The notes beneath the pieces are model-generated. The model was not told where the DNA came from. It ran no database searches and was given only the letters and a program-made list of their open reading frames with translations. 64,000 nucleotides of DNA, from positions 141,195 through 205,194 of the forward strand of contig JAGVNI010000008.1 of assembly GCA_020053355.1 (NCBI GenBank), in the 5' to 3' direction. Every line of letters begins with the position of its first letter. Position 1 is the first letter of the stretch. A program made the translations under genes and the position numbers. Below, piece by piece: positions 9,789 through 23,663 of this stretch. The DNA is from an archaeon (lineage in GTDB: Archaea > Micrarchaeota > Micrarchaeia > Anstonellales > Bilamarchaeaceae).

Positions 9789-11075
9789 GTGTGCTATGCC
9801 ATTCCGGGCAGGGTGGTCTCTGTCGAAGGGAAGACGGTCGTTGTGGACTATTTCGGCGAGACGAGGAAGGCCCATGCCGTGGACTGCCCCGTGCGGCCAG
9901 GCGAATACATCTATGCGCAGGGCGGGATAATAGTAGGCCAGATATCCGAAGCAGAGGCGCTTCCGATACTGGCGGCTTGGAAAGAGCGGTTCTTCGAGCT
10001 GAAGAAGGTGGACGCGGAGCTTTCGTCCGCCTCTACCGAAGCCCGTGGCGCTCTCGGAGCCGCAATAAAGAAAGCCATGGCGGGTGAAGCCCTCAGCCGG
10101 GAGGATATGCTGGCCGTCCTCTCTACGCGAAACCCCGCACAACTCGAAACCCTATACTTCGCGGCCAACAGGCTTAGGAAAGAACGGCTGGGCAACGCCT
10201 GCTGCGTACATGGCATCCTGGAATTCTCCAACCACTGTAGGAATGATTGCCATTACTGCGGCATCCGCTGCGGCAACCGGACGCTCAAACGCTACCGGAT
10301 GGATGCGGAGGAAATCTTCGAGGCGGTCGGTCATGCCGCCGACAAGCTCGGCTTCAAGGCAATCGTCCTCCAATCAGGCGAGGATTCATTTTACAAAGAC
10401 GAAATGCTCGCTGCCATCGTCAAGAAGCTGCATGAGAGGTTCGGGATCCTCATCACGCTGAGCATCGGCGAGCGCAGCAGGGAATGCTATCGCAGACTAT
10501 ACAAGGCCGGTGCATATGGCGCGCTCCTCCGCTTCGAGACCACAAACGAGGCGCTTTACTCCCGACTGCGGCCAGGCAAGAAGCTCGCTGACAGGTTGGA
10601 GCTGATAAAATGGCTAAAAAGGATGGGTTTCGTCCTCGCGACGGGATTTCTCATAGGCCTTCCGGGCCAGACCGCAGAGGACACGGCCAACGACATCCTG
10701 CTCACGAAATCGCTCGGCCCTGACATGCATTCCTTCGGTCCGTTCATCCCCCACCCAATCACCCCTCTTGCGTCCGCGGCGAAGCCGGCCCAGGAGGACG
10801 TCCTCAAGGCCATCGCGCTCTCCAGGCTGGCAGACCCGCAGGCCAAGATACTCGTGACCACCGCGCTCGAGACCTTCGGCCCGGGTGCCAGGGCGGCAGG
10901 CCTGCTCGCAGGGGCTAACTCCCTCATGATAAACACAACCCCTCCCAAGTACCGGAGGCTCTACGACCTTTATCCTGGAAAGGCCGGGACGGATGAGCCT
11001 CTGGAGGATGCCGTCCGGAAGGCAGTGGAGCTTCTCCGGTCGCTGGGAAGGGCGCCGGCAGACCTCGGAGTGTGA
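9789..11075 (+). CDS. hydE: HypC-HydE fusion: hydrogenase maturation radical-SAM protein
   Basis: Two hydrogenase maturation modules in one 428-aa chain. Residues 1-65 match HypC/HupF, the small [NiFe]-hydrogenase chaperone: MCYAIPGRVVSVEGKTVVVD, with the invariant Cys2 exposed if GTG 9789 is the start. A helical linker follows. Residues ~135-428 match HydE/BioB radical SAM: cluster Cys150, Cys154, Cys157 (CRNDCHYC), ILEFSNHC before it, LQSGEDSFY, LSIGERS, LRFETTN, GFLIGLPGQTAEDTAND and INTTPPKYR. In [FeFe]-hydrogenase bacteria HydE processes the complex made by HydG on the way to the diiron cofactor. HydG follows with a 4-bp overlap, but HydF and a hydrogenase are absent here. GC is clearly higher than in the flanking 12.5-14.3 kb gene. 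PylB is an alternative relative, less likely next to HydG. Confidence 0.87.
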   Translation: MCYAIPGRVVSVEGKTVVVDYFGETRKAHAVDCPVRPGEYIYAQGGIIVGQISEAEALPILAAWKERFFELKKVDAELSSASTEARGALGAAIKKAMAGEALSREDMLAVLSTRNPAQLETLYFAANRLRKERLGNACCVHGILEFSNHCRNDCHYCGIRCGNRTLKRYRMDAEEIFEAVGHAADKLGFKAIVLQSGEDSFYKDEMLAAIVKKLHERFGILITLSIGERSRECYRRLYKAGAYGALLRFETTNEALYSRLRPGKKLADRLELIKWLKRMGFVLATGFLIGLPGQTAEDTANDILLTKSLGPDMHSFGPFIPHPITPLASAAKPAQEDVLKAIALSRLADPQAKILVTTALETFGPGARAAGLLAGANSLMINTTPPKYRRLYDLYPGKAGTDEPLEDAVRKAVELLRSLGRAPADLGV

Positions 11076-12445
11076 GTTTTATAGGTATGACGATAGATGA
11101 GAAGAAAATCCTGGGTATCCTAGCCTCGACCGAGCCTCCTGACGACCGGAGGCTGGGTTGCATCCTCGCTAGGGCGATGATGAAGAAAGGACTTTCCCTG
11201 GAGGAGGCCGCCGAGCTGCTCGCAGTGAGCGGAAGCGGACAGCAAGAGAAGCTTTTCAGCGCTGCCGGAAGAGTGAAGGAGGAAATATACGGCAACCGCA
11301 TCGTGCTCTTCGCCCCCCTCTATCTCTCGGACCACTGCGTGAACGACTGCGCCTACTGCGGATTCCACAGCAGCAACCTGGCGCTCAGGCGCAGACGGCT
11401 CACCATGGAAGCGGTCAGGGGGCAGACCGGCCTGATAATACAGATGGGGCACAAACGTATCCTGCTTGAGGCCGGTGAACATCCAGACACCTCGATAGAT
11501 TACGTGTGCGAGGCGATTCGGGCCATCTACGGTACGAAGGTCGGCAACGGGGAGATACGGAGGGTGAACGTCAATATCGCAGCCACGGACGTCGAGGATT
11601 ACAGGAAGCTCAAGGAGGTGGGCATCGGCACCTACCAGCTCTTCCAGGAGACTTATCACCGTGAGACGTACGGGAAACTGCATAAGGGGCCCAAGGCCGA
11701 CTACGAACGGCAGATATCGGCGCATGAGCGTGCATTCGCGGCGGGCATAGACGACTACGGTATCGGCGTCCTCTTCGGTCTGTACGACCATCGCTTCGAA
11801 GTGCTCTCCCTCCTTGCGCACGCTGCGTACATGGAGGAAAAGTATGGTGTGGGGCCGCATACGATATCAGTGCCGCGGTTCAGGCCGGCTCCCTCAGTGG
11901 TCTACAGTCCAGGGTTTCCGGTCTCGGATTCAGACTTCCTCAAGCTGATTGCAGTGCTCCGCCTGGCAGTCCCCTACACTGGTATGATCCTTTCCACCCG
12001 AGAGCCGCCGGAGCTTCGGAAGAAAGCGTTCGGGATAGGCATCTCCCAGGCATCCGCCGGATCCAAGACCTCACCTGGCGGCTACTCCGCCAAGGAGACC
12101 GGCCAGTTCGAAATCTCCGACCGCCGGCCTGTAGATGAGGTCGTCCGCGGCATGTGCCGACAGGGGCTTCTCCCCAGCTTCTGCACAGCATGCTACCGCA
12201 GCAAACGCACCGGTGAGGCTTTCATGAAACTCGCCAAGGCGGGCAACATCAACTTCCTCTGCCGCCCCAACGCGGTACTTACGTTCAAGGAGTTTATAGT
12301 GGACTACGCGTCTCCTGCAGCACGGGAAGAAGGCGAGAAAGCGATAGCGCGCGAGCTGGAGAGGATAGGGGATGCGGAGAGGAAGGAGGAGACCAAAAGA
12401 AGGTTGGGGAGGATAGAGAAAGGCGAGCGGGATCTCTATTTCTGA
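11072..12445 (+). CDS. hydG: HydG-type tyrosine lyase (CO/CN- forming)
   Basis: Radical-SAM enzyme of ~457 aa that in known systems cleaves tyrosine and converts the product to CO and cyanide on an auxiliary cluster, delivering an Fe(CO)2(CN) unit. The SAM cluster is Cys89, Cys93, Cys96 (CVNDCAYC in YLSDHCVNDCAYCGFHS). The HydG-specific C-terminal auxiliary cluster motif CX2CX22C is intact (Cys371, Cys374, Cys397; SFCTACYRSKRTG...CRPNA), which separates it from ThiH. Other landmarks are LEAGEHP, YQLFQETYHRETY, FGLYDHRFEV and HTISVPRF. The GTG start 11072 overlaps the HydE stop; ATG 11087 is possible. Downstream genes are unrelated, so the pair stands alone. Confidence 0.92.
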   Translation: MSFIGMTIDEKKILGILASTEPPDDRRLGCILARAMMKKGLSLEEAAELLAVSGSGQQEKLFSAAGRVKEEIYGNRIVLFAPLYLSDHCVNDCAYCGFHSSNLALRRRRLTMEAVRGQTGLIIQMGHKRILLEAGEHPDTSIDYVCEAIRAIYGTKVGNGEIRRVNVNIAATDVEDYRKLKEVGIGTYQLFQETYHRETYGKLHKGPKADYERQISAHERAFAAGIDDYGIGVLFGLYDHRFEVLSLLAHAAYMEEKYGVGPHTISVPRFRPAPSVVYSPGFPVSDSDFLKLIAVLRLAVPYTGMILSTREPPELRKKAFGIGISQASAGSKTSPGGYSAKETGQFEISDRRPVDEVVRGMCRQGLLPSFCTACYRSKRTGEAFMKLAKAGNINFLCRPNAVLTFKEFIVDYASPAAREEGEKAIARELERIGDAERKEETKRRLGRIEKGERDLYF

Positions 12446-12534: not shown

Positions 12535-14328
12535 ATGCCGGATCAAAAACAGTTAGCAGCGACCAGTGTGAAGACTGCGGCGCAAGGAACAGTTTCAGTG
12601 CTACCCAAATTCAATTACAAACCCCTCTTAGGGGATATCCTGGAAGGAAGGATATGCAGATTGCCTGAAAAACTGAGGGTGGCTGTCGAGGGGCTGAACA
12701 GGGAAGCTAAGGCCAGAGGAAAAGAAGGGGAAATTAGGGCCGCACTAAAGGATTTGGGGGATATCGAAAACAACTACTTGCTGAATCATATCAACCGCAT
12801 TACCCAGGAACTGAAATCCGGGACGCTAAAAAATGGCGAGGATATCCAGATAGGCCGCCATCTTATGCGGGAGAGTCCGCAGGGTGCTGATTCAGTATTT
12901 TCAACGATAGGCAATTCTATCCGTATATTAGGAGAAGAACGTTGGAACACGATGGCAGTTCCGCAAAAGAAGGCATTCGTCCGAGGATCAATGCGGTTAA
13001 GTAAAAACCAGTGTCCTAAAGAGATACAAACTACAATGGCATCAGAACTTGAAAAAGGAACATTTGATGATATCCCGCAGGCCAAGGAAGCCCGTCTTGA
13101 AATAGAAGCGCAGAACACGGGCACACAGATCGTTGCGCAAATAACTCCTCTACAGATGTCTGCCGCAGCTCCGGCAGTCGCTCCGGTCGTTCAAAACGAA
13201 CCTGCATTAGCTCCAACTGATTCGTTCAACGATTCATGTTTTTGGCTTAGTTCCAGAAACGAGATGAAAAATCAACACTATCCGTCGCGGGAAGTGCTCT
13301 CAAATCCCCCACTTTGTAAATCGAAACTGGAAGACGATCGAGGGTTCTATTTGTTTGGGCAATTGATGCCGACTCCAGCTCCTCAGCAGGGAATATATCA
13401 AATGAACAATGAAAGAACACGATTTAGCGCAATGGCGATGACCAATTGCGAGACGCAACAAATGGGAAATAGAAAACAATCCCATTCGACAGCACAAGCA
13501 GAGGGAACTAAAATTTTGGAAATGAAAACCAGAACGCAGAGGTCTCTTGGAGTTGTTTCTGTACCAGGAACTAAAGAATCGACCAAAAAGGAGTTAGACT
13601 TAAAGGAAAAACCAACAATAGTCCGCGCCTCCAAGAATAAAAGACAGGGCGAACCCATAGAAGTTCAAACTCAAGATTTCGTGGTCAAGAATGCATGGAA
13701 AAAAGAGGTCAAAACCTCAACCAAATTTGAAGTAAAACAGGTACGCAAAAAGAAAACGCTTTCATTATATAAGAATGAACGGAGCCGTCGTTTGGCTAAG
13801 AAGAAGCAAGAACAGGTGAGAAAGAGGGAAAGAAAAAAGAAGGAAGAGGCGCACGAGAAAAAAGAGACTCGAGTCAAAGTCCGGAGTAAAGCTAACGAAA
13901 AAACCAAGAAAATGTTGGAAAAATGTGCCCACCTTGGGGAAAAAAAGGTGCGGGCCAAGGAAAAAGCTAAAGCATTGAAAGAGAAACGAAAGGAGAAATT
14001 GCGGGCAAAAGAAAAGAGACTGGATAGACGAACCAGATCACTGCAGTTTCAGAAGAAACCGAATGCAGCTAAGGCCAAAGCCAGATCTACTAAGCCTGAA
14101 ATCAAAGCCAAGAAAGTATCTAAGCCACAGGTGGTTATAAAATCAGAAAGTAAATCAAAGGCCAAAAATGATAGAACCCAGAAAGTGAGGGTGCCGGTCC
14201 GAAAACGCCCTCCGTTGGACGCGGTCAGACAAAGAAGGCGGAAACTCGCCCGCTGGCTGCTACTCAAAGATTTCCTCTTTCCCAAACGCCAACGAAGAGT
14301 AACACCAATACGGACCGCGGTTCTGTGA
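12535..14328 (+). CDS. Large Lys/Arg-rich protein, unknown
   Basis: 597-aa protein without recognised domains. Residues 1-~215 are mixed and may be folded; ~215-330 is Gln/Met/Ser-rich and probably disordered; ~330-597 is extremely basic, with runs such as KKKEEAHEKKETRVKVRSK and repeated KAKA/KEK motifs, predicting a highly charged helical or disordered tail that could bind nucleic acid. Start ATG 12535 has gggagggg just upstream, and a TATA box (gtatttaaat, ~12494-12503) precedes it. Base composition is more A-rich than the hydE/hydG pair upstream, suggesting different origin. The gene-free 14329-14589 interval shows nothing definite. Confidence 0.7.
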   Translation: MPDQKQLAATSVKTAAQGTVSVLPKFNYKPLLGDILEGRICRLPEKLRVAVEGLNREAKARGKEGEIRAALKDLGDIENNYLLNHINRITQELKSGTLKNGEDIQIGRHLMRESPQGADSVFSTIGNSIRILGEERWNTMAVPQKKAFVRGSMRLSKNQCPKEIQTTMASELEKGTFDDIPQAKEARLEIEAQNTGTQIVAQITPLQMSAAAPAVAPVVQNEPALAPTDSFNDSCFWLSSRNEMKNQHYPSREVLSNPPLCKSKLEDDRGFYLFGQLMPTPAPQQGIYQMNNERTRFSAMAMTNCETQQMGNRKQSHSTAQAEGTKILEMKTRTQRSLGVVSVPGTKESTKKELDLKEKPTIVRASKNKRQGEPIEVQTQDFVVKNAWKKEVKTSTKFEVKQVRKKKTLSLYKNERSRRLAKKKQEQVRKRERKKKEEAHEKKETRVKVRSKANEKTKKMLEKCAHLGEKKVRAKEKAKALKEKRKEKLRAKEKRLDRRTRSLQFQKKPNAAKAKARSTKPEIKAKKVSKPQVVIKSESKSKAKNDRTQKVRVPVRKRPPLDAVRQRRRKLARWLLLKDFLFPKRQRRVTPIRTAVL

Positions 14329-14589: not shown

Positions 14590-15399
14590 TCATGGCATCC
14601 GATACAGCAGATAAACCACTCCCAGATAACCTAAGTAGCCCAGCACCTGAAGATCACTCGGGGCGCCGTCGTATCCCACCAGCCCCTTCAGGACCGAGCC
14701 TACCGCGCCATGGTCGTGGAGCGCCGGGTAAGAGCCATCCGCGTTCAGCGGCGGATTTATGTCATACACGTGCTCTATCCACACTGGAAGGATTTTGGCT
14801 TCCTGGAGCTCGTGCACCCCCTGCGAGAACAGTCCCGCCGCAAGAAGCACGAGAACGAGCGCCGTCACCCTGAAGAAGAGCCCTATGCTGAATTTAACGG
14901 CATACTCGAACACAAGGAAGCCCACGACCACAGCCGCCGCAATCCCGATGAACGCGCCAAGGAGCGAAAGCGCACCTGTGCTCGCGTATATGCCTGCCAT
15001 GAAAAGCACGGCTTCCACGCCCTCACGCAGGGTGGCGACAAGAGCGAGGAGGAATATGCCGCGCCCGCCGCCTTTTGCCAGCGCCGCTTTCGCGTCTCCG
15101 CGCAAGCGCTCCACGACGTTCTTCTGCCTGGCCATCCACAATAGGAGCCAGGTCACGAGCCCTGCGGTCACCACCATGAAAATGCCCTCGAAGAGCGGTT
15201 CGTTGCTCTCGAAATCCGCCCTGAAAGCCAGAATGGATCCGGCCAGGGCGATACTCAGCACGATGCCGGAGCTCACACCGAGCCAGACGTGTTTTTCCTC
15301 AGCTGCGTTCCCCGTCCGGTTCAGGTATGCCAGGATTATGCCTATGACGAACGCTACCTCCAGGCTTTCCCTGAACATGACTATGAATTCCGCGAGCAT
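14590..15399 (-). CDS. FTR1-family high-affinity iron permease
   Basis: 269-aa membrane permease of the FTR1/EfeU family importing iron. Seven or so hydrophobic helices are visible. Both diagnostic REXXE motifs are present: RESLE near the N terminus (FIVMFRESLEVAFVIG) and REGVE (LVATLREGVEAVLFMAG), the iron-coordinating glutamates. It is divergent from the DtxR-type repressor gene and shares its palindromic TATA box (15423-15428) and the operator-like palindrome next to it; the start ATG 15399 is 26-27 bp from that TATA, so the mRNA is leaderless. An oxidase partner (EfeO/Fet3-type) is not seen here. Confidence 0.9.
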   Translation of the reverse strand: MLAEFIVMFRESLEVAFVIGIILAYLNRTGNAAEEKHVWLGVSSGIVLSIALAGSILAFRADFESNEPLFEGIFMVVTAGLVTWLLLWMARQKNVVERLRGDAKAALAKGGGRGIFLLALVATLREGVEAVLFMAGIYASTGALSLLGAFIGIAAAVVVGFLVFEYAVKFSIGLFFRVTALVLVLLAAGLFSQGVHELQEAKILPVWIEHVYDINPPLNADGSYPALHDHGAVGSVLKGLVGYDGAPSDLQVLGYLGYLGVVYLLYRMP

Positions 15400-15450: not shown

Positions 15451-16056
15451 ATGGCAGAAAAACGTACCCCCGAGGCTGAGGAGTATCTCGAGGCCATGGC
15501 AAGGGCGAGGGAAGCGGGAAATAGACCGACGGTGTCGGAGCTTGCTTCCGCACTAAGCGTGTCAAAAGCGAGCGTGAGCCAGATGCTCGCCAAGATGGCA
15601 CAGAGGGGGCTGGTGAAGTGCGAGAAATACGGGGAGATAGCGCTTACGCAAAGCGGCGCGGCCGAGGGTGCCAGGGTGCTGCGCAAGCATCGCCTCATAG
15701 AGCGGTTCCTGGCGTTCATCGGGCTGCGCAGGAACGTGCACAAAGAGGCATGCGTTCTCGAGCACGCGGTGTCGGACGAGGTGGAGAAACAGATGCGCAA
15801 TGCCATGCGCCACGCACATCCGGCTGCGGTCCCGCTCACCAGCCTGGGCAACGGGGAAAGCGCCAGGGTCGCGATTGTTGATGCCGGCACCAAGGCATCG
15901 CAGAGGCTTGCGGATATGGGCCTCACCAAAGGAACCAGGCTCACGCTCATAAAGGCAGCACCGTTCAAGGGTCCGGTTAAAATCTTGGTCAGGGACACCA
16001 CGCTCGCGCTCGGAAGGTCAGTAGCAGGAAGGATACTTGTCGAGGTGTCACGGTGA
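15451..16056 (+). CDS. DtxR/MntR-family metalloregulator with FeoA domain
   Basis: 201-aa metal-dependent repressor. The N-terminal winged helix (TVSELASALSVSKASVSQMLAKMAQRGLVKCEKYGEIALTQSG), the dimerisation/metal domain with HRLIERFLAFIGL, HKEACVLEHAVSDEVEK and the C-terminal SH3-like FeoA domain (~125-201: VPLTSLGNGESARVAIVD, ADMGLTKGTRL, GRILVEV) follow the family order. Metal ligands Cys and His/Glu in KEACVLEHAVSDEVE are retained. It probably senses Fe(II) and represses itself, feoB and the divergent FTR1 gene through the adjacent palindrome. The stop overlaps feoB by 4 bp. Confidence 0.9.
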   Translation: MAEKRTPEAEEYLEAMARAREAGNRPTVSELASALSVSKASVSQMLAKMAQRGLVKCEKYGEIALTQSGAAEGARVLRKHRLIERFLAFIGLRRNVHKEACVLEHAVSDEVEKQMRNAMRHAHPAAVPLTSLGNGESARVAIVDAGTKASQRLADMGLTKGTRLTLIKAAPFKGPVKILVRDTTLALGRSVAGRILVEVSR

Positions 16057-18035
16057 GCGTCCGGGTGAGCATGGGTTCCTGCTGCGTAACCCCGAACAGG
16101 AAGCCGGAAACCGGAAACACAGTAAAGATGCGGATAGCGCTCGCAGGCAATGCGAATGTGGGCAAGAGCGTACTGTTCAACTACCTGACGGGCATGTCCC
16201 AGCATGTCGCGAACTGGCCCGGCAAGACAGTTGAGCTTGCCGAAGGCAGGTTACGTTTCGGCGACTATGATATAGAGGTAATCGACCTGCCGGGAATCTA
16301 TTCGTTCTCCACATTCTCCATCGAGGAGCGGGTTTCGGAAGAGTACATTATGGGGAGGAAGCCCGACGTCGTGATAAATGTCGTGGACAGCACCGCGCTC
16401 GAGCGCAATCTGTTCTTCACGCTCCAGCTGCTCGAGTTGGGGGTGCCAGTGGTGATGGCGCTCAACCAGGTCGATGCGGCAAGGAAGAGGGGGATAGCCA
16501 TAGACGAGAAGAAGCTCGGGTCCCTTCTCGGCGTACCGGTCGTGCCCACGGTGGCGACCAAAGGGCTCGGGGTGCAGAAGCTGGTCGTATGCTGCATTGG
16601 GCTAGCAAAACGCCGGAAGGCGTCGCAAGGCAGGGCAAAATATGGGAAAGAGGTGGAGAGGAGAATAGGGAAGCTGGAGGCGATGCTGACAGGAAGGGAG
16701 TTGGGATTCCCTGCGAGATACGCCGCAATAAGGCTTCTGGAAAGCAGGGGGGCATCCATCGGCTATACTGATAACAAAGATAGAGAGCTTGCTGAGAAAG
16801 CCAGGCGGCTCGCGGAAGAGATCGAGCGTATCCATGGCGAGCCGGCTTCCATAGTGATGAGCAACGAGAGGTACGCTGTCGCCAGCGAAACCGCCACAAA
16901 TGTACAGTCCCTGACGAAAGGCGGCGAGGCGCTTGCGGAGAGGATAGACGATCTGACCACGCACAGGGTGTTCGGCTACGTGATAATGCTCCTCGTGCTC
17001 GGAGGGGTTTTCTACACAATATTCGCGTTTGGAGGTTTTCTCTCAACCGCGATATCGGATTTCTTCAATATTTTCAGGCCTGCGGGCGCATCGCTTTCCG
17101 GCAACCTGTTGTGGGAGGGGCTGGTGGGCGGCTTCGTGGCAGGGCTCACGCTTGTGCTGCCTTACGTGCTGCCGTTCTACTTCCTGCTCTCCCTGCTGGA
17201 AGACACAGGATACATCACGAGGGTGGCGTACCTGCTGGACGGACTGGCGCACAGGATAGGCTTCCACGGAAAGGCGATAATCCCGCTCCTGCTCGGCTAC
17301 GGATGCAACGTGCCAGCATGCATCGGGTGCAGGATAATGGAATACGACAGGGACAGGCTGATAACCGCCTTCGCGGTGACGCTTGTGCCATGCACCGCAA
17401 GGATGGTGGTCATACTCACCCTTGTCGCGGCATTCCTCGGCATCTGGTGGGCCGCCGCGATTTACATCGGAGACATCGTGCTGATAGCGATATTGGCAAA
17501 GGCGGCATTCAAGGTCCTGCCTGGAGAACCCGTAGGTCTGATCATGGAGATGCCCCGCTACCGGCTGCCATCGCTCAAGACCGTTGCAAAACAGACCGTG
17601 CTTAGGACCAAATCCCTCCTGACTATCGTCTTCCCCTATTACATCGGAGGCGGGCTTGTGCTAGCCCTGCTTCAGCTCTCGGGGGTGCTCGCTCTGCTGA
17701 ACGACCTGCTCCAGCCGCTCATAGTCGGTTGGATGGGATTGCCAGCGTTCGCAGGCACGCTCCTGATTTTTGGCATTGTCCGGAAGGAATTCATAGTCGT
17801 GCTTCCATCCGTGCTCTACGGTACAACTGACCTCGCGCAGATATTCACACCGCTCCAGATGGTGGTCCTCGCCTCGGTCGCCATGCTCTATATCCCCTGC
17901 TTCGCGACAATAGAGGCGCTGAGGCGCGAATTCGGCTGGAAGAAGGCGCTTTTCATAACAGGGTTCGAGATCGTGCTGGCGGTAGTGGTAGGGGGGTTGC
18001 TGGCGCGGCTGCTGCCCGCCCTTGGGCTGCCCTGA
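16053..18035 (+). CDS. feoB: Ferrous iron transporter FeoB
   Basis: Fe(II) uptake permease. The N-terminal GTPase has G1 GNANVGKS, G2/G3 region NWPGKTVE and DLPGIYSF, and G4 NQVD; a helical GDI-like domain follows to ~residue 290. The C-terminal membrane part (~300-655) contains two Gate/Nucleoside-recognition domains with GYGCNVPACIGCRIME and VPCTARMVV, the family's conserved pore segments. The GTG start 16053 overlaps the repressor stop (GTGA); ATG 16128 (MRIALAGNANVG) would give the usual short FeoB N terminus and may be the true start. FeoA function is supplied by the domain fused to the repressor upstream, so this is a compact iron-uptake operon. Confidence 0.95.
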   Translation: MSVRVSMGSCCVTPNRKPETGNTVKMRIALAGNANVGKSVLFNYLTGMSQHVANWPGKTVELAEGRLRFGDYDIEVIDLPGIYSFSTFSIEERVSEEYIMGRKPDVVINVVDSTALERNLFFTLQLLELGVPVVMALNQVDAARKRGIAIDEKKLGSLLGVPVVPTVATKGLGVQKLVVCCIGLAKRRKASQGRAKYGKEVERRIGKLEAMLTGRELGFPARYAAIRLLESRGASIGYTDNKDRELAEKARRLAEEIERIHGEPASIVMSNERYAVASETATNVQSLTKGGEALAERIDDLTTHRVFGYVIMLLVLGGVFYTIFAFGGFLSTAISDFFNIFRPAGASLSGNLLWEGLVGGFVAGLTLVLPYVLPFYFLLSLLEDTGYITRVAYLLDGLAHRIGFHGKAIIPLLLGYGCNVPACIGCRIMEYDRDRLITAFAVTLVPCTARMVVILTLVAAFLGIWWAAAIYIGDIVLIAILAKAAFKVLPGEPVGLIMEMPRYRLPSLKTVAKQTVLRTKSLLTIVFPYYIGGGLVLALLQLSGVLALLNDLLQPLIVGWMGLPAFAGTLLIFGIVRKEFIVVLPSVLYGTTDLAQIFTPLQMVVLASVAMLYIPCFATIEALRREFGWKKALFITGFEIVLAVVVGGLLARLLPALGLP

Positions 18036-19885: not shown

Positions 19886-20593
19886 TCACTTGCCCTTCAA
19901 CTGTTCAATCAGTCTCGCGGCCGCGGCAGCCTAATTCGGGCTCCATTCTACGGCCACCCCCAGCTCATTGGACGGAGGGGCGTTGAGGTAGATGGCCTGT
20001 CCGAAGCTATCGCACACGGGGTTATAGTAGTCGCGAGCAACAAGGCCTACCCTTTTTTCCATCCTCCAGAGGAATCTGGCGTCTGGATGGAGTTTATCTG
20101 GTTTATGCCCCCATGGGATGTCATCTCTCGGGTTGCCGATGTACCAGCTATTTTCTGTCGGGAATCTTTCCACCGCGTCGATTTGCGCCGCCTGGACGAT
20201 TCTTTCTTTGCCTTCCTTGACAAGGGAGAAGTTAGGGTGTTCCACTATCAGGATGATGTTTTTCTTCCCCCAATGCTCCTCTGGAACCGGGAAAGTGTAC
20301 GCAATGCCCGTTATCGAATCGGTGTATTCAATCAGTTTTCCGACCCTCTTATTTGGCTCTTCATAAGCGGTCATTGTCCCGCTCCAGCATGGGAACGCCT
20401 CGGCTATACCCCGCCATTTATCGCTTCTGAGAATGACATTGTTCAGCCGTTTGTTCGATGCGATGACCAGCCCGGCATCATCGGCCCTTTGCAGGGCTTC
20501 TTCCATCGGAACGCCCTTTGTAAAGGGAGTTAGCACCGCGAGTTTCGTGCCAGGCGTTCTCTCGTTGCCTGGAATCTTCCGGGTCAGCGTCAT
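19886..20593 (-). pseudogene. Fifth array paralog, interrupted by an in-frame TAG
   Basis: Last member of a five-gene tandem family of unknown function. The frame reads from ATG 20593 (MTLTRKIPGNERT) to TAG at 19931-19933. Translation beyond it in the same frame gives AAAAARLIEQLKGK and a TGA at 19886, exactly the conserved tail of its siblings (AAAARLIEQLK). The residues before the TAG (VEWSPN) replace the siblings' VEGTPEQI, so a short deletion/substitution introduced the stop. The body is well conserved (EALQRADDAGLVIASNKRL, FPVPEEHWGKKN, WYIGNPRDDIPWG). It overlaps the previous array gene by 4 bp. Confidence 0.75.
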
Positions 20594-21411
20594 TGTTTCG
20601 CCTTCCAGTACTCGAGCAGCCTCGCAGCCGCCGATATCTGTCCAGGAGTTCCGTCTATGATGAGCCTACCGTTTTCCTCCCGCACCGATAGCTGGGCGCC
20701 CCATGCGGCATCCCGGATTTCACGGATTAGAGGTTCGATGTTGCCCGGGAGCGTCACTCCGGTCGCTTGTACCGCAACTCCGAAGCCGATGGACGGCCAG
20801 CCGCTCAAATCGATGTACTGCGAATGGTAGCCGCAGTCATAGCCGCGCACAATCATGCATACGCCCTTCTCCATCCGGAACATGTGCCTGCCGCTCGGGC
20901 CGGTGGCATTGACATGCCTGCTTTCCTGCGGGATGTCGTGTTTTTCATCGCCGAAGAACCAGCCTTCCCTTGATGAGGGGAACCTTTCGACTACATCCAC
21001 TTTGTCTGCCATGATGAGCCGGTCATGGGCGTCCTTTTCGATTTTGAAGTCGGGGTGCTCCACCACAAGTGCGATGTTTTTCTTCCCCCGATGCTCCCTA
21101 GGAACGATGAAGTCGTAGTTCAAGCCGGTATTCGGGTCGGTGAACCGTATGTACTTCTCAAGCGCCTTATCCGGCTTCTCATATGCGACCATCGTCCCGC
21201 TCCGGCACGGGAACGCTTCGATTATGTCGCGCCATTCGAATCTCCCGTAAAGGGCCCGGCTTAGCCGCCTGTTCGATGCCATCACGAGACCAGCTTCATC
21301 GGCCCTCCGCAGGGTTTCTTCCATCGGGGCCCCGCGGTCGGAACGTATGAAAACCGCAAGGTTCGGGCCACGGATTCTCTCGGGGCCTGGATTCTTCTGG
21401 GTTAATGTCAT
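20590..21411 (-). CDS. Array paralog 4, unknown family
   Basis: Member of the tandem family; no known domain recognised. Start ATG 21411 (MTLTQKNPGPERIRG) is chosen over a frame start at 21426 because it aligns with the siblings' N termini and has aaggtg before it. Shared blocks in order: ETLRRADEAGLVMASNRRL, EWRDIIEAFPCRSGTM, AYEKPDKALEKYIRFTDPNTGLNYDFIVPREHRGKKN, LVVEHPDF, VERFPSS, a Trp/Gly/Asp motif (WFFGDEKHDIP) and the tail GRLIIDGTPGQISAAARLLEYWKAKQ. It is longer than its siblings before the tail. No signal peptide or membrane helix. Probably cytosolic. Confidence 0.75.
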   Translation of the reverse strand: MTLTQKNPGPERIRGPNLAVFIRSDRGAPMEETLRRADEAGLVMASNRRLSRALYGRFEWRDIIEAFPCRSGTMVAYEKPDKALEKYIRFTDPNTGLNYDFIVPREHRGKKNIALVVEHPDFKIEKDAHDRLIMADKVDVVERFPSSREGWFFGDEKHDIPQESRHVNATGPSGRHMFRMEKGVCMIVRGYDCGYHSQYIDLSGWPSIGFGVAVQATGVTLPGNIEPLIREIRDAAWGAQLSVREENGRLIIDGTPGQISAAARLLEYWKAKQ

Positions 21412-22184
21412 TTTCGCACCTTCCATCTCTCCATCAGTTCTGCTACGCTGTCACGACCCACCTGGGACGATTTAAGAAGCCAGCCCCATAGATTCTGGCT
21501 CATTGAAAGAGAAGGCGCATCATTGGTCGGCAATGGGTTCTCGATGGCCGCACCGAACCAATCGCTAGGCTGTTTGTCAACGTAGACGAGTTGCTTGGGA
21601 TGGCCCGTCCAGTTTTCATTTTTGCAGGCGACAAGACCCACCCATTTTCTTACCCTCGCAAGGAGTCGCCCCTCCGGATTGAAATAATCTACTTTTTCTC
21701 CGGTCGGGATACCATATTTCGGATCGGCAAGATAATAGTTATTTGATACGGGGAATTCTTCGACTATGCCGACTTTTTTCGCCTGTACGATGCTTGTTTT
21801 TCCGTCTCTCTCAAGCGTGAAGTCCGGATGCTCCGCCACTAAGATGACGTTTTTCTTTCCCTGATGCTCCTCTGGAACCGGGAATATGTATTTTTTTCTT
21901 GTTAGCGGGTCGGTATATTCAATCATCTTCCCTAGCTTCTGGCCCGGCTTATCATATGCGGCCATCGTTCCGCTCCAGCAAGTGAAAACATCACTTACTT
22001 GCCTCCATTCGTTGCTTCCAACCAATGCCTTGCCCAACCGTTTATTCGACGCTATCACCAATCCGGCTTTATCAGTCCGGCGTAAGGCCTCTTCCATGGT
22101 TACACCGTTGACATTTGTGATGAAACTTGCCAGGTTCGGGCCCCGGATTCTCTCGGGACCCGGAATCTTCTGGGTTAATGCCAT
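21408..22184 (-). CDS. Array paralog 3, unknown family
   Basis: 258-aa member of the family. N-terminal MALTQKIPGPERIRGPNLA, then EEALRRTDKAGLVIASNKRL, EWRQVSDVFTCWSGTMAAYDKPGQKLGK, FPVPEEHQGKKNVILVAEHPDFTLERDGKTSIVQAKKVGIVEEFP and YYLADPKYGIPTG. The C terminus (after IENPLPTNDAP) departs from the shared GTPEQIAAAARL tail, ending VGRDSVAELMERWKVRK, so the tail module is altered here. It begins one base after the previous gene's stop and overlaps the next start by 4 bp, so the array is one operon. Confidence 0.75.
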   Translation of the reverse strand: MALTQKIPGPERIRGPNLASFITNVNGVTMEEALRRTDKAGLVIASNKRLGKALVGSNEWRQVSDVFTCWSGTMAAYDKPGQKLGKMIEYTDPLTRKKYIFPVPEEHQGKKNVILVAEHPDFTLERDGKTSIVQAKKVGIVEEFPVSNNYYLADPKYGIPTGEKVDYFNPEGRLLARVRKWVGLVACKNENWTGHPKQLVYVDKQPSDWFGAAIENPLPTNDAPSLSMSQNLWGWLLKSSQVGRDSVAELMERWKVRK

Positions 22185-22895
22185 TCATTTCACCTTCAAT
22201 TGCTCAATCAGCCTCGCTGCCGCGGCTATCTGCTCGGGTGTGCCTTCGACAACGACGCCGAAACAGTCCGCTGGGCGGTGGCTGATGCTGACGCTACAAG
22301 GGTCGATGTAACCTGGAAAGTCGCTGTCTCCCCGGACGACCAGGCGTATCCCCCTGTAGCCCCGGACGATGATTCTTGCCGCATCGCTGCGTTTGTTCAC
22401 TTGCTTTCCGGAGGGGATATCGTAAACCGGGTCGCCGGAATACCACCCGCCCGTATTGGCCGGCACTTTCGCCACGATGCCGACTTCTTTCGCGTGAATT
22501 ATCCTCGTCATCCCGTCCTGCTCAATCGTGAAGTTCGGATGCTCTGCGACAAGGACAACGTTTTTCTTGCCTTGGTGCTCTTCGGGGACATCGAGGACGT
22601 ACCGGTGGCGGTCCGGGTAATCACTCCATTCGAACGTCTTTCCAAAGCGCACGCCCGGCTCTTCGTATGCCACCAGGGTGCCGGTCCAAAGCGGAAACGC
22701 ATCGATGATGGATTTCCACCCTCCGCTGCTGGTAAGCGCCCGGTCGATTCGCTTGTTCGATGCAATGACCAAGCCTGCCTCGTCAGCCCTCCGTAGGGCC
22801 TCGTCCATCGGAACGCCCTTTGCAAAGGGGGTCAGCACGGCGAGACTCGGACCTCGGATTCTCTCGCTGCCTGGGTTCTTCTGGGTTAAAGCCAT
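22185..22895 (-). CDS. Array paralog 2, unknown family
   Basis: 236-aa member with the full consensus layout: MALTQKNPGSERIRGPSLA, DEALRRADEAGLVIASNKRI, GWKSIIDAFPLWTGTLVAYEEPGVRFGKTFEWSDYPDRHRYVLDVPEEHQGKKNVVLVAEHPNF, IVAKVPANTGGWYSGDPVYDIPSGKQV and the C-terminal VEGTPEQIAAAARLIEQLKVK. The tail (a small strand plus amphipathic helix) is the best conserved end block. Its ATG directly follows the stop of paralog 1, with the ribosome-binding site ggtgaaatga inside that gene's end. Confidence 0.75.
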   Translation of the reverse strand: MALTQKNPGSERIRGPSLAVLTPFAKGVPMDEALRRADEAGLVIASNKRIDRALTSSGGWKSIIDAFPLWTGTLVAYEEPGVRFGKTFEWSDYPDRHRYVLDVPEEHQGKKNVVLVAEHPNFTIEQDGMTRIIHAKEVGIVAKVPANTGGWYSGDPVYDIPSGKQVNKRSDAARIIVRGYRGIRLVVRGDSDFPGYIDPCSVSISHRPADCFGVVVEGTPEQIAAAARLIEQLKVK

Positions 22896-23663
22896 TCATT
22901 TCACCTTCATCTGCTCAATCAGCCTCGCGGCTGCGGCTATCTGCTCACGAGATCCCACGACGATAAGTTTGTGCTCATCGTCTCTCATCAACCATATCGT
23001 GGTTCCTGATGTGGCTTCGACTGCCACCCCGAAATTCCAGCTGGGTCCGCTATTCAGATAGATGCATCGTTTGTCATTGCCATTCCTATCATCATATAAG
23101 CGGTTGACCATGCCTACGTTTTTCTCGATCCTGTGAAGCGCTAGTGCTCCCGGGTCTTGATAGGTGACTATATTCCCTGCAGGTATGTCATGTTTCGGAT
23201 CCCCGATATACCAGTGATTCGAAACCGGGAATTCGGTGATTATGTCAATTTCAGTTGCCCGCACAACCCTTGTTTTCCCATCCGCCTCAAGTGAGAAGTT
23301 CGGATGTTCGGCTATCAAAGCGATATTTTTCTTTCCAATATGCTCTTCTGGGACAGGGAAAACATACCGTATGCCCGTATCGGGATCTTGATATTCGATA
23401 TTTTTCCCGAGTTTCTGATCCGGCTTGTCATAAGCGGCTATCGTCCCGGTCCAGCATCCGAATGCTCCCTTCACGCTCCGCCATTCATGGTTCCCTATAA
23501 GGGACTGGCTGAGCCGCTTGTTCGATGCGATGACCAACCCCAAATCGTCGGCTTTTCGGAGCGCCTCTTCCATCGGAACCCCGGGCCACCTCGCAATGAA
23601 AACAGCCAAATCCGGGCCCCTCATCCTCTCATCTCCAGCCTTTTTTTCCTGTGAAATAGCCAT
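22896..23663 (-). CDS. Array paralog 1, unknown family (operon leader)
   Basis: First gene of the five-member operon, 255 aa. Blocks: MAISQEKKAGDERMRGPDLA, EEALRKADDLGLVIASNKRL, EWRSVKGAFGCWTGTIAAYDKPDQKLGKNIEYQDPDTGIRYVFPVPEEHIGKKNIALIAEHPNFSLEADGKTRVVRATEIDIITEFP, WYIGDPKHDIPAG, and tail KLIVVGSREQIAAAARLIEQMKVK. A TATA-like tract (~23681-23692) and ggggtgg site precede ATG 23663. It is divergent from the TrmB-type regulator at 23747, which may control the operon. Two more distant relatives lie at 57577 and 58400 beside protein kinases. Confidence 0.78.
   Translation of the reverse strand: MAISQEKKAGDERMRGPDLAVFIARWPGVPMEEALRKADDLGLVIASNKRLSQSLIGNHEWRSVKGAFGCWTGTIAAYDKPDQKLGKNIEYQDPDTGIRYVFPVPEEHIGKKNIALIAEHPNFSLEADGKTRVVRATEIDIITEFPVSNHWYIGDPKHDIPAGNIVTYQDPGALALHRIEKNVGMVNRLYDDRNGNDKRCIYLNSGPSWNFGVAVEATSGTTIWLMRDDEHKLIVVGSREQIAAAARLIEQMKVK

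Follow-up and report, generated by a model that had tools for sequence, protein, structure and literature searches.

The window, i.e., the whole 64,000-nucleotide stretch of archaeal DNA analyzed here, contains two overlapping genes related to the maturases of two different hydrogenase classes. A single forward-strand ORF, read from a GTG start, encodes a 428-aa protein in which HypC is joined to HydE, and its end shares four bases with the start of hydG. The features of this locus (coordinates within the window) are as follows:

9789-11075 (+): HypC-HydE fusion, 428 aa, GTG start (domain, profile, and PDB matches; conservation)
9789-10013 (+): HypC domain, residues 1 to 75, five strands and a helix (PF01455; PDB 2z1c; AlphaFold2 topology)
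9792-9794 (+): codon for Cys2, which in HypC binds and transfers the iron (invariant in 55 fusions; role from PMC12134894)
9918-9920 (+): Gln44, where classical HypC has His51 (conserved without exception in 55 fusions)
10065-11027 (+): HydE radical-SAM domain, residues 93 to 413 (TIGR03956; Foldseek 7o1p)
10200-10211 (+): C138-C139-V140-H141, characteristic of HydE associated with [NiFe] (C139/H141 in 57/57, versus 0/5 of the [FeFe] type)
10236-10259 (+): HydE radical-SAM motif C150-x3-C154-x2-C157 (sequence and alignment)
11072-11075 (+): start/stop overlap GTGA between the fusion and hydG (sequence)
11072-12445 (+): HydG, 457 aa, predicted tyrosine lyase and CO-CN synthase (TIGR03955; PDB 4wcx)
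11336-11359 (+): HydG radical-SAM motif C89-x3-C93-x2-C96 (alignment)
11819-11821 (+): HydG His250 (conserved in 60/60)
12182-12262 (+): HydG C-terminal cluster motif C371-x2-C374-x22-C397 (alignment)

Both parts of the fusion protein scored above the respective family cutoffs, residues 1 to 64 with HupF_HypC (PF01455; 41.6 bits, cutoff 28.5) and residues 93 to 413 with the NCBIfam HydE model (TIGR03956; 281.8 bits, cutoff 254.6). The HypC part, which has the N-terminal M-C-x-x-[IV]-P-G motif with Cys2 and the HypC fold, also matches the PDB HypC structure 2z1c (E value, 2e-8). The HydE part contains Radical_SAM and BATS domains and an intact CX3CX2C motif (Cys150/154/157), and in an AlphaFold2 model of the fusion (pLDDT, 93.9; pTM, 0.92), it has the HydE fold, superimposing on Thermotoga maritima HydE (Foldseek, 7o1p) with an rmsd of 1.4 Å. 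The HydG protein matches TIGR03955 over nearly its full length (526.5 bits, cutoff 312) and PDB 4wcx with an E value of 4e-158; it retains the SAM motif, the C-terminal CX2CX22C motif, and the dangler-iron histidine position. This histidine, His250, aligns with His265 of T. italicus HydG, which we take to be the dangler-iron ligand. The in-frame HypC-HydE fusion and the overlapping HydG with both cluster motifs, as described in the original prediction from the sequence, were thus recovered by the profile searches. The residues M1-C2-Y3-A4-I5-P6-G7 are invariant in 11 homologs (the window protein and 10 relatives from a whole-protein search), which supports the GTG start at 9789 and translation of the HypC segment, as against a start farther downstream.

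Directly 3' of hydG lies a 597-aa Lys/Arg-rich ORF without a Pfam match (12535-14328, +), and genes for an FTR1 iron permease (14590-15399, −) and a FeoB ferrous transporter (16053-18035, +) occur shortly downstream. Five tandem paralogous ORFs of 220 to 278 aa, also with no Pfam match, occupy 19931-23663 (−).

HydE-like proteins participate in other organometallic cofactors, and the profile search identified HmdB as a distant relative of the fusion, so that the pair might be imagined to build a cofactor for an unidentified non-hydrogenase enzyme or an Hmd-type [Fe] site. The resemblance to HcgA/HmdB of [Fe]-hydrogenase cofactor synthesis is that of a HydE-like radical-SAM protein; the window fusion reached only 74.8 bits with the HmdB/HcgA model (TIGR03957) against a cutoff of 320.9, and its gene context differs, being that of [NiFe] operons (see below). 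We regard this explanation as highly implausible.

The fusion is widespread and is not a local accident. Full-length copies were found in 11 of the 295 genomes of the same phylum (including that of the window), scattered across several families. The GTDB scan covered 84,980 genomes with the patterns MCYAIPG[KR] and N[AS]CCVH[GA]I, and the best 80 of 191 GTDB relatives were kept, nearly all of which match residues 1 to 428. Because of these patterns, the 80 loci were in part selected for conservation of the two stretches; Gln44, the C139/H141 pair in two unfused genomes, and all features in the 11 phylum genomes are free of this bias. The survey for fusions beyond the window that had been proposed with the original prediction identified carriers in both domains, i.e., archaea (Micrarchaeota, Nano-/Woesearchaeota, and Aenigmatarchaeota) and bacteria (Omnitrophota, Margulisbacteria, Saganbacteria/WOR-1, Scalindua and other Planctomycetota, Elusimicrobia, and Patescibacteria), with Lentisphaerae, Spirochaetes, Nitrospirae, and others as further carriers. 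At one locus (L150), HypC, HydE, and HydG form a triple fusion of 943 aa.

We examined the gene content of 61 fusion genomes (11 from the phylum and 50 distant), which are not phylogenetically independent of each other. A [NiFe] hydrogenase large subunit was present in all 11 phylum genomes (background, 70/295 over the cutoff; hypergeometric P of 7e-8, with relatedness ignored) and in 48 of the 50 distant genomes, i.e., in 59/61 overall; no [NiFe] hydrogenase was found in 2 of the 50. The [FeFe] hydrogenase was found in none of the 11 phylum genomes and in 6/50 distant genomes, leaving 55/61 without an [FeFe] large subunit. HydF exceeded its cutoff in three distant genomes, each of which also has an [FeFe] hydrogenase, and was missing in the other 47/50. 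Neither HypD (profile search) nor HypE (over the cutoff) was detected in any of the 11 phylum or 50 distant genomes, the weak HypE matches presumably being PurM/ThiL/SelD relatives, and HypF, which was searched for in a 34-genome set, was over the cutoff in 0/11 phylum fusion genomes. The fusion therefore tracks [NiFe] and not [FeFe] hydrogenases, and most of its genomes lack a HydEFG system with its [FeFe] enzyme ([FeFe], 0/11 and 6/50; HydF, 3/50), while the core of the HypABCDEF system was not recovered (HypD and HypE, 0/61; HypF, 0/11). The genome-wide search for hypD/E/F and hydrogenases is consequently in line with the original prediction, and a normal HydEFG set with an [FeFe] hydrogenase and no Hyp proteins, the case named there as speaking against it, is not the pattern found. 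Separately, 38 of the 295 phylum genomes have an [FeFe] hydrogenase, mostly without any HydE or HydG match in the same genome.

Most of the fusion genomes are MAGs (70 to 93% complete in the phylum set), and in a further phylum genome (G174), the fusion copy is broken and fragmented with no [NiFe] hydrogenase detected; the missing hypD/E/F genes could thus be assembly gaps, with the fusion an accessory or decaying gene. The HypD model, which gave no match in 61 genomes, does match 5 other genomes of the phylum and the expected controls, and Cys2, Gln44, C139, H141, and the cluster cysteines are conserved across phyla. Furthermore, one fusion genome with a [NiFe] hydrogenase (G341, locus L188) is a single 1.67-Mb contig from a record titled curated complete, in which HypD, HypE, HydF, and [FeFe] hydrogenase were not found. 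Incompleteness was rejected as the cause of the missing Hyp genes on the basis of the 0/61 count and this single contig, and we consider this account scarcely credible; the G174 case is what co-loss of the fusion and the hydrogenase would predict. The group-4-like [NiFe] subunit of L188 retains the proximal CGIC and distal CxxC cysteines, and its HydE homolog scored 222.8 bits with TIGR03956, under the cutoff of 254.6.

Gene neighborhoods also link the fusion to [NiFe] hydrogenases. Within 8 kb of the 80 GTDB loci, a [NiFe] subunit gene was present at 27 and some hydrogenase-operon gene at 45, while HypD and HydF were found at none; in roughly half of the cases, the flanks contain no hydrogenase gene, and HydG was not seen in the flanks of 28, many contigs being short. 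In the model case (L166), genes for a sulfhydrogenase-beta-like protein, an FNR-like protein, the small subunit, the large subunit, the HycI protease (above its family cutoff), a short HypA, HypC-HydE, and HydG follow each other on a single strand, and in G223, one 8.5-kb contig carries both the [NiFe] hydrogenase and the fusion.

HydE and HydG are [FeFe] maturases, and the pair could in principle still mature an [FeFe] (or hybrid) enzyme with HypC in the role of HydF: 3 of the 80 loci include an [FeFe] gene (close to the fusion in L195 and in the flanks of L180 and L197), and two genomes (G339 and G344) have an [FeFe] hydrogenase with no HydF over the cutoff. Gene content led us to discard this role, given the 55/61 fusion genomes without an [FeFe] large subunit and the location of the fusion within [NiFe] operons; in G342, where both enzymes coexist, the [FeFe] enzyme is accompanied by a separate HydG-HydE-HydF set and the fusion by its own [NiFe] operon. 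This reading is therefore very unlikely, with dual use possible in the minority of fusion genomes that also have an [FeFe] hydrogenase. The same contrast exists within the phylum, where unfused HydE with HydF and HydG (G218, G131, and G254) accompanies [FeFe] and no [NiFe] hydrogenase, whereas unfused HydE without HydF nearby (G102 and G109) accompanies [NiFe]; in total, the 13 phylum genomes with a fused or unfused HydE lacking a nearby HydF all have [NiFe] and no [FeFe] hydrogenase (Fisher P of 0.002 for HydE with versus without HydF, with relatedness ignored).

Sequence features distinguish both halves of the fusion from their classical counterparts. In Escherichia coli HypCD, His51 of HypC is among the residues whose exchange abolished activity (PMC12134894). 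HypC proteins associated with HypD in this phylum keep this histidine (VHVGFA/VHTGFA), whereas HypD-free HypC, fused or free, has glutamine; in the fusions, whose genomes lack HypD, Gln44 is as invariant as Cys2 (55 sequences). In HydE, C139 and H141 occur in 57/57 [NiFe]-associated sequences and in 0/5 of the [FeFe] type, which have Y/H/W and R at these positions, and the HydE tree separates the two types with support of 0.98 to 1.0. We had likewise expected a separate clade for HydG of the fusion loci; this was rejected, because its tree is intermingled, unlike that of HydE. As the HydG catalytic residues are kept, the specialized step seems to reside in HydE-HypC rather than in HydG. A few HydG variants (L132, L158, L163, L179, and L183) carry the motif CTAGYRCGRTG, in which the second cysteine of the C-terminal cluster is Gly and a new Cys appears 3 residues later.

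The original prediction had placed the pair in a setting without HydF or a hydrogenase. This description holds locally, with no HydF near the locus and no hydrogenase in the window, but not for the genome (G000), whose contig C12 encodes a 430-aa group-3 [NiFe] large subunit with both cysteine motifs, a small subunit, and a putative protease with weak similarity to HycI. The closest PDB match of the large subunit is the cytosolic hydrogenase of Thermococcus/Pyrococcus (E value, 1.6e-66), and we infer that this group-3b-like enzyme is the client of the pair in this organism. At another locus (L093:7228-9294), a group-4-like hydrogenase small-subunit (20-kDa) gene is split by an in-frame, intein-like insertion.

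Six genomes of the same genus (G150, G217, G088, G147, G149, and G208) have [NiFe] hydrogenases, with intact cysteine motifs where examined, and HypD, HydE, and HydG were not found in them. Since the enzyme retained by G150, G217, and G088 is of the same group-3 type as that of the fusion genome, HypC-HydE/HydG may not be strictly needed for the group-3 hydrogenase of this genus. In the same-genus genomes examined, a DUF6390 gene lies beside the hydrogenase, as it does on contig C12 of the window's genome (L086:7803-8546, −). DUF6390 consists of a helical domain and a C-terminal HypC-like domain, and the five best Foldseek matches are all HypC structures; in the alignment, Cys2 of HypC corresponds to an invariant C150 and His51 to H209, and in one genome (G038), HypC is joined to part of DUF6390.

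From these data, we propose that HypC-HydE and HydG form an alternative assembly line, independent of HypD/E/F, that makes the Fe(CO)(CN)2 unit of the [NiFe] site, a reading to which we assign a probability of about 0.8. Coupling of HydG-derived CO and CN to a HypC-type carrier for a [NiFe]-type center, the core of the original prediction, is strongly favored over an [FeFe] role by the genomic evidence (59/61 [NiFe], 0/61 HypD/HypE, 6/61 [FeFe], and the bacterial [NiFe] operons), with the chemistry argued from homology. In the known reactions, HydG converts two tyrosines to [Fe(Cys)(CN)(CO)2], which is passed to HydE for reduction and dimerization (PMC12752695), and ordinary HypC delivers Fe(CN)2CO, bound to its Cys2, to the apo-large subunit (PMC12134894). 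In the proposed pathway, (i) HydG, given its intact motifs, would cleave tyrosine and use its fifth iron to assemble an Fe-CO-CN unit; (ii) by analogy with HydEFG, this unit would pass to the HydE domain; (iii) the specialized HydE (C139 and H141) would yield a mononuclear Fe(CO)(CN)2 with no dimerization, one CO being swapped for cyanide; (iv) Cys2 of the fused HypC would take up the iron unit, with Gln44 replacing His51, presumably because HypD is absent; and (v) judging from operon content, HypC would dock on the apo-large subunit, HypA-type proteins would add nickel, and a HycI-type protease would clip the C terminus.

The ligand ratio counts against this pathway, as the HydG product has 2 CO to 1 CN (PMC12752695) and the [NiFe] iron has 1 CO to 2 CN; the CO-to-CN exchange is thus its weakest point. 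The mismatch suits an account in which HydG supplies CO only, cyanide comes from another source, and HypC-HydE merely carries or loads iron, HypC being the classical iron carrier (PMC12134894). HydG makes cyanide too, though, and with HypE absent from 61/61 and HypF from 11/11 genomes checked, the known cyanide route is missing, so that we judge this account unlikely, if the most serious of the competitors. The assembly line can also be stated more fully, i.e., every diatomic ligand on the [NiFe] iron would derive from tyrosine via HydG, be remodeled by the dedicated HydE, and be handed on by the HypC joined to it, with no need of HypD/E/F, across numerous phyla of archaea and bacteria; we hold this version to be probable, with somewhat less assurance. 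A bolder form is that some such [NiFe] centers may carry Fe(CO)2(CN).

The proposed system shares features with several known ones. Like HydE-HydG-HydF of the [FeFe] H cluster, it has a HydG with all motifs and a HydE with the expected fold and cluster motif, but most fusion genomes lack HydF and [FeFe] hydrogenases, and the fusion HydE is joined to HypC, has C139/H141 for Y/H/W and R, and has no C-terminal cysteine motif. It resembles HypABCDEF in HypC Cys2, the [NiFe] client, and the HycI protease and HypA-like genes of the bacterial operons, but HypD and HypE (and HypF where searched) are absent, His51 is Gln, and radical-SAM enzymes would supply the iron unit. HypX of aerobes is likewise a dedicated CO source for [NiFe] hydrogenase, but it draws on formyl-THF/formyl-CoA and acts together with HypCD (PMC12134894), whereas tyrosine and radical-SAM chemistry without HypD are proposed here. 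Our survey of the literature, which covered open-access papers, yielded no account of the fusion, its tie to [NiFe] hydrogenases, or the HypDEF absence, and the gene pair has apparently not been described before. The individual protein families are familiar, and at that level the proposed pathway combines two established systems.

If correct, this proposal would probably answer where anaerobes obtain CO for the [NiFe] iron center, and it names candidate enzymes for this anaerobic CO source. Many lineages that retain [NiFe] hydrogenases lack the classical HypDEF set, and a compact operon suited to expression and testing is available. The shared maturases would thereby connect two unrelated hydrogenase classes.
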